Below are positions 47,756 to 50,771 of a stretch of DNA of 64,000 nt, piece by piece. How positions within the stretch are numbered: the first letter of the stretch is position 1; each line of letters opens with the position of its first letter. Origin of the DNA: Cytophagaceae bacterium (GTDB taxonomy: Bacteria; Bacteroidota; Bacteroidia; Cytophagales; Spirosomataceae). The position numbers and the translations under genes were made by a program. A model generated the notes under the pieces. The model made no database searches, was not told the origin of the DNA, and was given only the letters and a program-made list of their open reading frames with translations. The stretch covers positions 124,001 through 188,000 of the forward strand of contig JAIXWQ010000012.1 of NCBI GenBank assembly GCA_027491195.1. Direction: 5' to 3'.

Positions 47756-48118
47756 ATGGAATTAAAAAACTATGAGACGGTGTTCATTTTAACTCCCGTT
47801 TTGTCTGAGCAACAGACAAAGGACACTGTTGAGAAATTCAAGAATCTGTTGGTAGAAAACGGTGCGCAAATCGTTCATGAAGACGCTTGGGGCTTACGTA
47901 AGTTAGCTTACCCGATTCAGAACAAGCACACTGGATACTATCAAATTTTCGAATTCGCAGCAGCTCCTACTTTAGTCGCTAAATTAGAATTAGAATACAA
48001 GCGTGATGAGCGCGTGATTCGTTTCTTAACTCTAGCGGTAGACAAGCACGCTTTAGCGTACAACGAAAAAAAGAGAAAAGGATTAGTAGGTAGAAAACCA
48101 GAAAAAACAGAAGCATAA
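47756..48118 (+). CDS. rpsF: 30S ribosomal protein S6
   Basis: 120 aa from the ATG at 47756, where the family sequence [19 protein letters not shown] begins; the frame is open upstream but that part is the promoter and leader. [20 protein letters not shown] is typical of S6. Binds 16S rRNA together with S18, encoded next. Confidence 0.95.
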
Positions 48119-48119
48119 T

Positions 48120-48371
48120 ATGACACTAGTTAACGAACCTGTAGATAAGAACGGAAACCGCAAAAAGTATTGCCGTTTCAAGAAATCTGGTATTCAATAC
48201 ATCGATTTCAAAAACCCAGACTATTTATTGAAGTTAGTGAATGAGCAAGGTAAAATCTTACCTCGTCGTATCACTGGAACTTCTTTGAAATTCCAACGTC
48301 GTGTGGCACAAGCTATCAAGCGTGCTCGTCACTTGGCTTTAATGCCTTACGTGGCTGACGGTTTAAAATAG
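48120..48371 (+). CDS. rpsR: 30S ribosomal protein S18
   Basis: 83 aa, family length. YIDFKNPDYLLKLVNEQGKI and PRRITGTSLKFQRRVAQAIK are the S18 signature. Partner of S6 on the platform of the small subunit. 1 nt after rpsF. Confidence 0.95.
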   Translation: MTLVNEPVDKNGNRKKYCRFKKSGIQYIDFKNPDYLLKLVNEQGKILPRRITGTSLKFQRRVAQAIKRARHLALMPYVADGLK

Positions 48372-48407
48372 TACCTTATCCAATAAACATTTGATTGTAA
48401 ACATAAG

Positions 48408-48851
48408 ATGGAAATTATATTAAAAACAGATATTGCTGGATTAGGTTACAAAAACGATATCGTTGCAGTGAAAGCTGGTTACGGTCGTAATTACTTAATT
48501 CCACAAGGATTCGCTATCATGGCGACTCCGTCTAACCGCAAGGTTGTAGCGGAAAACATCAAGCAAGCTGCTCACAAAGTGGAGAAAGTTCGTCAAGATG
48601 CATTCGATTTAGCTGCAGCTATCGGTGAAATGGCATTGATTATTCCTGCGAAGACAGGTGATAGCGGAAAAATCTTTGGTCGTGTGACTAGCCTTCAAAT
48701 CTCAGAGATGTTGAAAGAAAAAGGCTTCGATATCGATCGTAAGAAAATTTCATTCGATACAGAAGTGAAGACTACCGGCGATTACGCTGCTACGCTTGAC
48801 TTACACAAAGAAGTAAAACACAAGATTGCTTTCTCTGTGGTTTCAGAATAG
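48408..48851 (+). CDS. rplI: 50S ribosomal protein L9
   Basis: 147 aa: N-terminal domain EIILKTDIAGLGYKNDIVAV with the family GYGRNYLIPQGFA, connecting helix, C-terminal domain. Last gene of the ribosomal operon; a terminator follows after 24 nt and then the palindrome array. Confidence 0.95.
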   Translation: MEIILKTDIAGLGYKNDIVAVKAGYGRNYLIPQGFAIMATPSNRKVVAENIKQAAHKVEKVRQDAFDLAAAIGEMALIIPAKTGDSGKIFGRVTSLQISEMLKEKGFDIDRKKISFDTEVKTTGDYAATLDLHKEVKHKIAFSVVSE

Positions 48852-48875
48852 TATTTGAAACAAAACGATAAGTAG

Positions 48876-48907
48876 AAATCGCGCTGAGCAATCGGCGCGA
48901 TTTTTTT
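48876..48907 (+). terminator. Intrinsic terminator of the rpsF operon
   Basis: AAATCGCGC and GCGCGATTT form a perfect 9-bp stem over a 10-nt loop, followed by a T tract (T7 from 48901, the first three paired in the stem). The last bases and the T tract are also the left arm of the long inverted repeat that follows, so the two structures compete. Confidence 0.88.
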
Positions 48908-48938
48908 ATTTTAAGCGGAGGCTTAAAATAAAAAAATC
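48899..48938. repeat. Perfect 18-bp inverted repeat with GGAG loop
   Basis: From GATTTTTTT at 48899 to AAAAAAATC at 48938, the arms match over 18 bp around GGAG (48917-48920), the inner part being ATTTTAAGC/GCTTAAAAT. In RNA it would form a long A-U-rich hairpin and take the T tract of the preceding terminator into its stem. Confidence 0.88.
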
Positions 48939-49273
48939 TAGTCGATAGTCGCCGCGAAGCGGCGAAGTCGACTGCGTCTGAGTCGCCGCGAAGCGGCTTA
49001 GTCATCGCTGCGGGATTTAGTTGTCACTTCGTGACTTGGTCGCCGCGAAGCGGCTTAGTCATCGCTGCGCGATTTAGTCGTGACTGCGTCGCTTAGTCGA
49101 AAAAAAACAAAAAAAATCCGGAAAGGAATTTCTTCCCCTCCGGACTTTTTGACTAAGTTGCGAAGCAACGACTAAGCGACGCAGTCGCGACTAAGACGAA
49201 GTCGACTAAGTCACAAAGTGACGACTTTTCTCCGACTCAGCGACGAAGTCGCGACTTGAGCCGCCTGCGGCGA
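48939..49273. repeat. Micro-palindrome array in a mostly 19-bp register, inverted about a central terminator
   Basis: About 14 short palindromes, mostly 5-bp stem plus 3-nt loop (13 nt), joined by 6-nt linkers. Left units have centres at 48957, 48974, 48991, 49010, 49029, 49048, 49067 and 49086 with linker TTAGTC; right units have centres at 49163, 49182, 49199, 49216, 49246 and about 49265 with linker GACTAA, its reverse complement. Spacing is 19 bp between full units and 17 where the unit is 9 nt. Stems differ (GCCGC, ATCGC, GTCAC, GTTGC, GCGAC) but stay self-complementary, with two one-base mismatches. Loops are GAA, TGC, TTC, GCA or AAA; the last unit has a 2-nt loop. The array ends 2 nt from the icd stop. 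19 is not a multiple of 3, so it is not coding. Confidence 0.9.
49103..49150 (-). terminator. Central bidirectional terminator (end of the icd transcript)
   Basis: TCCGGA (49117-49122) pairs with TCCGGA (49139-49144), with an inner GGAA/TTCC pair around TTTC. On the minus strand eight T's follow (A8 at 49109-49116 on plus); on the plus strand five T's follow (49146-49150). It is the symmetry centre of the palindrome array. Confidence 0.82.
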
Positions 49274-50503
49274 TTACGCTAACGCTGCCTTTAAATTCGT
49301 ATCTAAAGCCTCTAAGAACTCTTCTGTGTATAAGTAGTGCTCTCCGTGCTTCACTTTGTTGCCGTGGATACAAACTGCTAAGTCTTTGGTCATCTTACCA
49401 GATTCAACCGTAGCCACACACACTTTTTCTAATGTTTGGCAGAAATTAATCAACGCCGCATTGTTATCTAATTTACCACGGAACTCTAATCCACGAGTCC
49501 ATGCGAAGATAGAGGCAATTGGGTTAGTTGATGTAGGCTTTCCCGCTTGGTGATCGCGGTAGTGACGAGTCACTGTTCCGTGAGCAGCTTCCGCTTCCAT
49601 TACTTTTCCGTCTGGTGTAATTAAAACTGACGTCATTAAGCCTAATGAACCGAAACCTTGAGCAACGGTATCCGACTGAACGTCTCCGTCATAGTTCTTA
49701 CAAGCCCAAACAAAGTTACCATTCCACTTCAAGGCAGAAGCAACCATGTCATCGATCAAACGGTGCTCGTAAACGATACCTGCTGCTTCGAATTGTGCTT
49801 TGTAATCTGCTTGGTAGATTTCTTCGAAGATGTCCTTGAAACGGCCATCGTATTTCTTCAAGATCGTGTTCTTAGTAGATAAATATAAAGGCCATCCTTT
49901 GCTCAATGCCATGTTAAAGCAAGAGTGTGCGAAACCTTTGATTGACTCATCTGTGTTGTACATGGTCATGGCAACGCCATCGCCTTTGAAGTTATATACT
50001 TCGAAAGTTTGAGCAGCACCACCATCTTCAGGTTGGAATGTAACTGTTAATTTACCTTTTCCTTTTGTAACGAAATCGGTTGCGCGGTATTGATCACCAA
50101 AAGCGTGGCGGCCGATCATGATCGGAGCAGTCCAGTTAGGAACTAAACGAGGAACGTTAGCACAAACGATTGGCTCACGGAAAACAGTACCATCTAGGAT
50201 ATTACGGATCGTTCCGTTAGGTGATTTCCACATTTGTTTTAAATCGAATTCCGTTACACGAGCCTCATCCGGAGTGATGGTAGCGCATTTGATACCTACA
50301 CCGTATTTTTTGATTGCCTCAGCAGCCTCGATGGTTACTTGATCATTCGTCTCATCCCGGTATTCTACACCTAAGTCATAGTACTTAATGTCTAGATCTA
50401 AATAAGGCAAGATTAATTTATCCTTGATGAATTTCCAGATAATTCGAGTCATTTCATCGCCGTCTAATTCAACGACTGGGTTGGCAACTTTAATTTTTTC
50501 CAT
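49274..50503 (-). CDS. icd: NADP-dependent isocitrate dehydrogenase (eukaryote-like homodimeric type)
   Basis: TCA cycle enzyme: isocitrate to 2-oxoglutarate plus CO2 with NADP. 409 aa, matching the homodimeric type II subfamily (mitochondrial IDH2-like) rather than the E. coli Icd. [18 protein letters not shown] is the substrate-binding block, [10 protein letters not shown] and [19 protein letters not shown] hold metal and active-site residues, [17 protein letters not shown] binds the cofactor. Its 3' UTR would contain the right half of the palindrome array. Confidence 0.95.
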
Positions 50504-50543
50504 TTTTGTTATATCAAAATTTTGATAGGTTGTGATAATCTTG

Positions 50544-50551
50544 CAAAGGTA
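50544..50551 (-). promoter_or_regulatory. Candidate -7 element for icd
   Basis: Minus-strand TACCTTTG fits TAnnTTTG, 40 nt upstream of the icd start. The remaining about 220 bp up to ffh hold no gene I can support; a 66-codon TTG-started frame there has no recognisable features. Confidence 0.4.
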
Positions 50552-50771
50552 AAGACTAAATCTTTTTTACGTGAGTATTTTGGGGTATTTTTGTTGAAAA
50601 TTATAGCTTTTTTTGAGTGCAAGGGGAATAAGGGGGCGAGATGGGAAGTTGTGGATTCGGTTTTGGCCAAAGTATCTACAGACACCCCCGCGATTTACCC
50701 TCATTTACGAGAAAACAATTGATTAAAATTTGCCTGAAAAAGCGTAAATTGCAGTCCTTTTTTTAGATACT

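Follow-up and report, generated by a model that had tools for sequence, protein, structure and literature searches.

Bacterial palindromic repeats are often explained by RAYT transposases. The nearest known kind to the arrays described here is the REP family of repeats, and the palindromes of Volvox carteri organelles are nearest in behaviour. REPs and BIMEs are, in the sections of the source used here, short extragenic palindromes that occur in many copies, in clusters, and as inverted dimers, with stems that carry alternative complementary residues and a short tag 5′ of the hairpin (PMC3733652). The Volvox palindromes have 3–5 nt loops, fill intergenic space, and were read by their authors as selfish (PMC2670323, in the part consulted). 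Beyond such elements, template switching between short inverted repeats (quasipalindrome mutation) is stated to homogenise arms and invert spacers (PMC8604942) and can create and maintain hairpins (PMC8794818), and GNA-loop DNA mini-hairpins with G-C stems are reported to be exceptionally stable (PMC4686876), as far as the portions of these papers at hand go.

Here, we describe hairpin arrays of one Aquirufa branch which share with REPs and BIMEs all of the features listed above, including extragenic palindrome clusters at several sites per genome. The Aquirufa stems, however, are 3–5 bp with 3-nt loops, against stems of 8–9 bp and loops of 4–5 nt in the CGTC families and stems of 5–13 bp in the GTAG families (PMC3733652, same sections). 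Their linker is TTAGTC rather than GTAG or CGTC, one constant linker joins many stems, and in place of a GTAG tag the units collected are bounded on both sides by TTAGTC (in the arrays read, by TTAGTC or a one-base variant). No Y1/RAYT domain was found in the array genomes, several of which are incomplete, and the arrays show strict polarity towards genes. The Volvox palindromes differ in lying in organelle DNA, averaging 50 nt, and having nested insertions, with no fixed linker ladder described in the part consulted (PMC2670323). Arm homogenisation and spacer inversion are features that template switching has in common with the Aquirufa arrays (PMC8604942, PMC8794818, in part), but it is a process and not an element, and would explain hairpins, not linker, spread, or polarity; C(GNA)G mini-hairpins match the Aquirufa loop and closing pair, yet the available part of their source describes them as oligonucleotides, not as a genomic array (PMC4686876).

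None of the literature matches listed, which lay mostly outside subscription journals, described a TTAGTC hairpin family, and a word search of the available text of two Aquirufa papers (PMC10821818, PMC11861422) returned no mention of palindromes, repeats, or intergenic regions. A sequence-only reading had remarked that it knew of no named element with this layout, and none was found in the literature searched. The array family looks like a relative of known bacterial palindromic repeats that is apparently undescribed, rather than a single odd site.

Results

The window, by which we mean the whole 64,000-nt stretch of DNA analysed, comes from a 2.49-Mb Aquirufa-type genome. Two convergent genes, rplI (ribosomal protein L9; 48408..48851, plus strand; an ORF with Pfam Ribosomal_L9_N/C) on the left and icd (isocitrate dehydrogenase; 49274..50503, minus strand; an ORF with Pfam Iso_dh) on the right, enclose two arrays, with eight micro-hairpins on the left and about six on the right, and a bidirectional terminator-like hairpin between them. 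The left array (48939..49098, plus strand) is in TTAGTC orientation with unit centres at 48957, 48974, 48991, 49010, 49029, 49048, 49067, and 49086, and contains a 57-bp three-unit tandem duplication, 88% identical (48982..49095, plus strand; repeat search, TRF period 57). The right array (49151..49273) has its TTAGTC orientation on the minus strand and starts at the icd stop codon (TAA, then TCGCCGC...). The terminator that had been placed at the flip point does sit between the arrays, as an inverted repeat at around 49111..49150 with T runs on both sides and a minus-strand terminator scan match, reads as bidirectional, and serves icd on the minus strand; rplI also has its own intrinsic terminator 5′ of the array (inverted repeat, 48876..48912, plus strand), which is the same or near-identical in all seven other array-clade genomes compared, with one base changed in G021.

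The earlier count of about 14 palindromes, mostly with 5-bp stems and 3-nt loops, was borne out. Nine perfect 5-3-5 hairpins lie in the 335 bp of 48939-49273, against a mean of 0.64 and a maximum of 5 in 2000 order-1 Markov resamples of the region, alongside two one-mismatch 13-mers (49004-49016, 49080-49092), two 3-3-3 hairpins (48970-48978, 49195-49203; a further 3-3-3 match at 49204-49212 is linker sequence), and a 5-2-5 palindrome read by eye at 49260-49271. The proposed switch from TTAGTC on the left to GACTAA on the right stands for exact copies on both sides (TTAGTC at 48998, 49055, 49074, and 49093; GACTAA at 49151, 49170, 49189, and 49204) but not for every linker, several being one base off (TGAGTC, TTAGTT, TTGGTC). 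The pattern TTAGTCN{9,13}TTAGTC occurs five times in the window, with 0.02 expected. No tRNA gene was found in the window, and Rfam gave for 48000-50600 only two matches with E up to 5, both under the gathering score. When folded as DNA, the left array by itself does only slightly better than shuffled sequence (z -2.3 and -2.7).

Extending the search for linker-bounded hairpins to the complete genome and its relatives, as the sequence-only reading had proposed, confirmed that the rplI-icd array is real and a member of a repeat family, which the window alone could not reveal. Within its own genome, BLAST gave the 335-bp region 66 matches with E ≤ 1, counting overlaps and hits on both strands, and TTAGTC-N7..15-TTAGTC matched there 89 times against 12 for the reversed control pattern, nearly all of the 89 being hairpins by eye. 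Across the genus, the N9..13 form gave 25–104 exact linker pairs in 10 of 38 genomes and 0–3 in the other 28, with 0–14 matches per genome for the reversed control, while the array pattern was present in none of 22 genomes from other families of the same order. The array genomes look like one clade, because RecF (found in eight of the ten) is 96–100% identical to the G000 protein, self-match included, against 72–76% in the array-less genomes listed, these being identities and not a tree. The antheringensis branch of Aquirufa is described as having genomes of ~2.5 Mb and 42% G+C (PMC10821818, PMC11861422, in the text available). One unit pattern run over genomes of 84,980 species, a single pattern that misses other stem and linker variants in a collection from which the own genome was possibly left out, matched 51 stretches in records of Aquirufa antheringensis, Cytophagaceae bacterium, and Spirosoma fluviale (one MAG). 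One Aquirufa branch thus carries many short runs of hairpin words as a clade-specific repeat family. A viral or plasmid origin was rejected, since the 335-bp region had no match in 50,697 phage and 72,556 plasmid records and one unit pattern had none in viral contigs.

Each unit consists of TTAGTC and a 3–5 bp stem with a 3-nt loop. Sampling between exact linkers gave 475 cores (89 from G000, 77 from G019, 75 from G007, and 234 from 44 other loci), of which 86 were 9 nt, 46 were 11 nt, 318 were 13 nt, and 25 had other lengths. Core lengths of 9, 11, and 13 nt give unit steps of 15, 17, and 19 bp; the 19-bp register noted earlier therefore holds locally, over the six centres from 48991 to 49086, but not for the family. 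Pairing was assessed on the 450 units with 9-, 11-, or 13-nt cores, the 25 of other lengths being left out, and 406 of them are perfect hairpins (83/86, 40/46, and 283/318 by core length, against means of 32.0, 32.6, and 42.7 when 3′ arms were dealt out anew among units). The observation that stems differ while self-complementarity is kept thus extends to the unit population, above arm-shuffled controls. The stem vocabulary is ~30, with 24 five-base stems among perfect 13-mers. The loop is closed by C-G in 403 of the 406 perfect units and is TNC in 323, which with its C-G closure is C(GNA)G on the other (GACTAA) strand. The commonest stem class is ATCGC, with 98 units that show up to two stem changes (90 of them show none); its middle loop base is T in 53, G in 24, and A in 21. 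A loop and its inverse occur on one stem in GCCGC (GAA 2, TTC 3), GCGGC (GAA 5, TTC 1), GGCGC (AAA 3, TTT 4), and GCGAC (GGA 1, TCC 1), a matter of few units in four stems; on the most abundant stems, no loop was found together with its exact inverse. The units end in linker and not in the T tract that follows the GC stem of an intrinsic terminator, separate terminators lying beside some arrays. A constant TTAGTC linker alternating with interchangeable micro-hairpins is thereby shown.

Placement was analysed for 94 arrays in stretches of G000, G007, and G019 (27, 25, and 21 array clusters in the three genomes), with genes taken from simple ORF calls. Four arrays were dropped from the polarity count, two lying inside a long ORF and two lacking a gene on one side. 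The TTAGTC (5′) end is nearer to a gene in 74 of the remaining 90 and the other end in 16, such that arrays point away from the nearer gene, with median distances of 27.5 and 179 nt for the two ends. The bias recurs per genome (27/31, 26/33, 21/26) and among solitary arrays (32/42), although these polarity and orientation counts pool three related genomes with partly orthologous sites. The gene edge that faces the TTAGTC end is a stop in 64/90 and a start in 26/90. The mirror arrangement seen at rplI-icd proved to be a family-wide rule: among 26 neighbouring array pairs <600 nt apart, 20 are convergent (16 of these ≤76 nt apart), six point the same way, and none is divergent. Array-bearing intergenic regions (n=66) comprise 33 convergent, 25 tandem, and 8 divergent cases; the 92 gene pairs taken as background, drawn from the window and from 20 sampled stretches of G007, comprise 8, 53, and 31.

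Stop codons frequently lie within the array itself. For the 63 arrays with a co-oriented stop ≤320 nt away, the stop falls inside the first linker in 16 (TAG 15, TAA 1), and in four more the stop is followed directly by GTC; in some stop-in-linker cases, such as a GH3-family gene, the open frame itself extends into the array. Separately, one array (L198:3556-3576, with an orthologue in L174 of G007) lies inside a 1464-aa open frame and is read through without a stop, near the linker between AcrB-type (ACR_tran) and outer-membrane efflux (OEP) domains. On contig G007:C1, arrays are found almost only in 0.16–1.48 Mb of the 2.5-Mb chromosome, with one more at 2.48 Mb and dnaA at 449. As to a replication-strand bias, array strand counts in G007 are even (39 and 37), but the GC skew of 36 sampled stretches did not locate the terminus.

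Orthologous sites were compared across species. At rplI-icd, read by eye in 8 array-clade and 22 array-less genomes, six of the eight (G000, G019, G023, G027, G021, and G030) carry arrays whose unit strings differ; in G007 the place is taken by another micro-repeat, and in G008 the contig stops there. No array was seen in the compared stretch of the 22 array-less genomes; in five of them (G026, G034, G016, G013, G010), icd adjoins rplI with just two terminators between, and most of the others have another gene at that position. The recF stop is TAG in all seven clade genomes compared, with only G000, G007, and G021 running directly from TAG into an array and G019, G023, G002, and G030 having other filler after it. 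In five of seven clade genomes (G000, G007, G021, G019, G008), the first hairpin supplies the last codons of the GH3-family gene, VLRT-stop, and the gene ends differently in array-less relatives. In G000, gpmI ends TTC-TAG within the array; in G007 and G019 it ends TTT-TAA, and a terminator-like stretch lies between that stop and the array. The search for shared sites covered the array stretches retrieved from G007 and G019. Both flanks of at least 16 of the 27 G000 array clusters led to an array no more than 400 nt away in one of these two genomes, three further clusters were matched by one flank, and eight by neither. More than half of the sites examined are thus also present in a sister species, although their units turn over. 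Arrays also contain tandem block duplications. The idea of a composite element, in which the two arrays would enclose a conserved core, was rejected, as the spacers read differ. In one comparison (G000 L207 against G019 L220), one flank is 96% identical over 2.9 kb and the other has no listed 500-bp match, and the break falls near the array, a possible rearrangement at an array.

The earlier claim that structure rather than sequence is selected, and the expectation of compensatory changes in orthologous arrays, fared less well. Across 18 orthologous site sets, aligned with a limit of one mismatch per unit (a filter that favours paired stems), 46 unit pairs were identical, 58 had one or two differences, 6 had more, and 9 differed in length. 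The 45 distinct pairs with one or two differences contained 20 linker changes (over 6 sites), 20 loop changes (over 3 sites), and 17 stem changes (over 6–10 sites). Stems are more conserved per site than linkers and loops, yet almost every stem change affects one arm alone; the one clear paired exception is GTTGC to ATTGC, where both arms are altered. Per-site compensatory selection therefore looks weak, and selection on structure as originally worded is unsupported. In our reading, pairing is high since perfect units are continually copied in, not since each site is strongly policed, and unit turnover can explain much of it.

Protein domains were surveyed in parallel. Y1_Tnp (PF01797) was found in 0/10 array genomes (several incomplete, 73–90%), 12/28 array-less genomes (10 over the cut-off), and 5/14 control genomes, and RAYT/IS200 mobilisation was rejected for the Y1 family on this absence. 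Within Aquirufa, Y1/RAYT-type domains were thus found in array-less genomes and in none of the array genomes, the opposite of the usual REP link. Reverse transcriptase (PF00078) was rejected as a partner, being inconsistent (3/10 array against 2/28 array-less genomes).

Other repeats also populate these genomes. A second palindrome, TATTGACA-N5-TGTCAATA (e.g., G000:C3:196160-196180), has 8, 5, and 6 sites in G000, G007, and G019 and none in three array-less genomes searched (G010, G015, G033), several of the sites being within a few hundred bases of an array. Word-like micro-repeats of the ACCATTCACC, TAGAGAGTAGAGAG, CTTTGTGCTTT, AGTGGACAGT, and GACTAGCGACTAG types fill further intergenic regions of the clade, at L003, L014, L017, L019, L020, and G007 rplI-icd (L137); micro-repeats are likewise present at recF in G019, G023, and G002 (L234, L235, L237). 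Some of all these micro-repeats start close behind a stop codon.

Discussion

We favour, at about even confidence, the explanation that the rplI-icd array is one site of a clade-specific set of extragenic mosaic palindromic repeats, neutral to selfish, whose hairpins are kept mainly by DNA-level copying. We infer the following mechanism of multiplication. Duplication of units and blocks, together with exchange among arrays, would multiply the family; where DNA is single-stranded, the C(GNA)G mini-hairpins may form and promote template switching, which would make the two arms match and sometimes invert the loop, and fresh perfect copies would replace decaying units. Purifying selection on coding sequence would account for the crowding of arrays at stop and start codons and for their concentration in regions between convergent genes, and any use as a 3′-UTR structure or transcription boundary would be secondary. 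We prefer this DNA-level account because loop and inverse pairs on one stem, like arm homogenisation, are template-switch outcomes. Against it, plain neutral filling would predict weaker polarity and less in-register fusion to stop codons than we see, which hints at targeting or at a function. Neither an enzyme nor a recent jump was found, and the eight G000 clusters unmatched in the G007 and G019 stretches leave room for gain, loss, or movement. Among the roles that the sequence-only reading had offered, a mobile repeat fits best.

Movement driven by an enzyme is one alternative. Here, a HUH nuclease other than Y1, or another recombinase, would mobilise the element in trans by acting on the hairpin and a TAG-containing target, with arrays inserted directly after TAG stops much as REP/IS200 use a short tag 5′ of the hairpin. 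The TAG-dominated linkers, the three clade genomes whose array is joined at exactly the recF TAG that all seven share, the strict orientation, and the unmatched G000 clusters speak for it; yet the missing Y1 domain, the inconsistent reverse transcriptase counts, the sharing of at least 16 of 27 sites between different species, and the gpmI ends in G007 and G019, TAA and not TAG and then a terminator-like stretch, make such an enzyme unlikely in our estimate. A function at the RNA level, in which hairpin ladders in 3′-UTRs (and some 5′-UTRs) protect transcript ends or separate convergent transcripts, and a mirrored pair can form a single long hairpin that encloses a bidirectional terminator, seems similarly doubtful as the main explanation. 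Several arrays do sit between stop codon and terminator, and convergent gene pairs are over-represented. The 335-nt region has folding energies of -179.8 kcal/mol for one strand and -180.5 kcal/mol for the other (z -11.7 and -13.2), but strong folding is expected of any inverted repeat this size. By scan, a terminator-like site lies just downstream of 12 of 94 arrays, compared with 4 for the mirror control and 74 for 1880 random windows; this points modestly to UTR use, and for 82 arrays the scan found no such site. Moreover, 26 of 90 arrays face a start codon and not a stop, orthologous stems drift one-sidedly, the same gene end holds different filler in some clade members (as at recF in G019 and G023), and single mismatches on the TTAGTC strand (G.T 8, A.C 20, other 10) show no excess of the G.U type, so that wobble gives no help to the transcript-end option raised earlier. 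The arrays may have an RNA role, and a transcription-collision barrier, also suggested at the outset, would fit the array position between convergent pairs.

Least probable, and in our judgement quite improbable, is an array of sites for a dimeric DNA-binding or nucleoid protein. Palindromic units, a constant linker, and clustering would suit such a protein, but a dimer site would keep its bases, whereas these stems vary widely; what is conserved is the linker plus the C-G that closes the loop, and steps of 15, 17, and 19 bp break helical phase. Dimer binding in regular phase, as had been proposed, is unlikely because the step varies by 2 bp, and a helical-phase array was rejected on that ground. 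Returning to DNA-level copying, a bolder form of it joins copying to targeting: a structure-copied genomic parasite in which hairpin shape, not sequence, is inherited and multiplied, the fixed linker serves as the joint, gene edges are targeted through the TAG of that linker, and no RAYT-type transposase is needed. We consider this speculative, with perhaps a slim-to-modest chance of being right.

Conclusions

A dense, clade-limited repeat family in which no RAYT domain was found bears on how hairpin repeats multiply without that transposase, and the same family bears on whether perfect repeat stems reflect selection or template-switch copying. These questions are tractable in Aquirufa, with an isolated strain in the genus (A. 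antheringensis 30S-ANTBAC), shared sites with differing unit strings, and array-less sister species.
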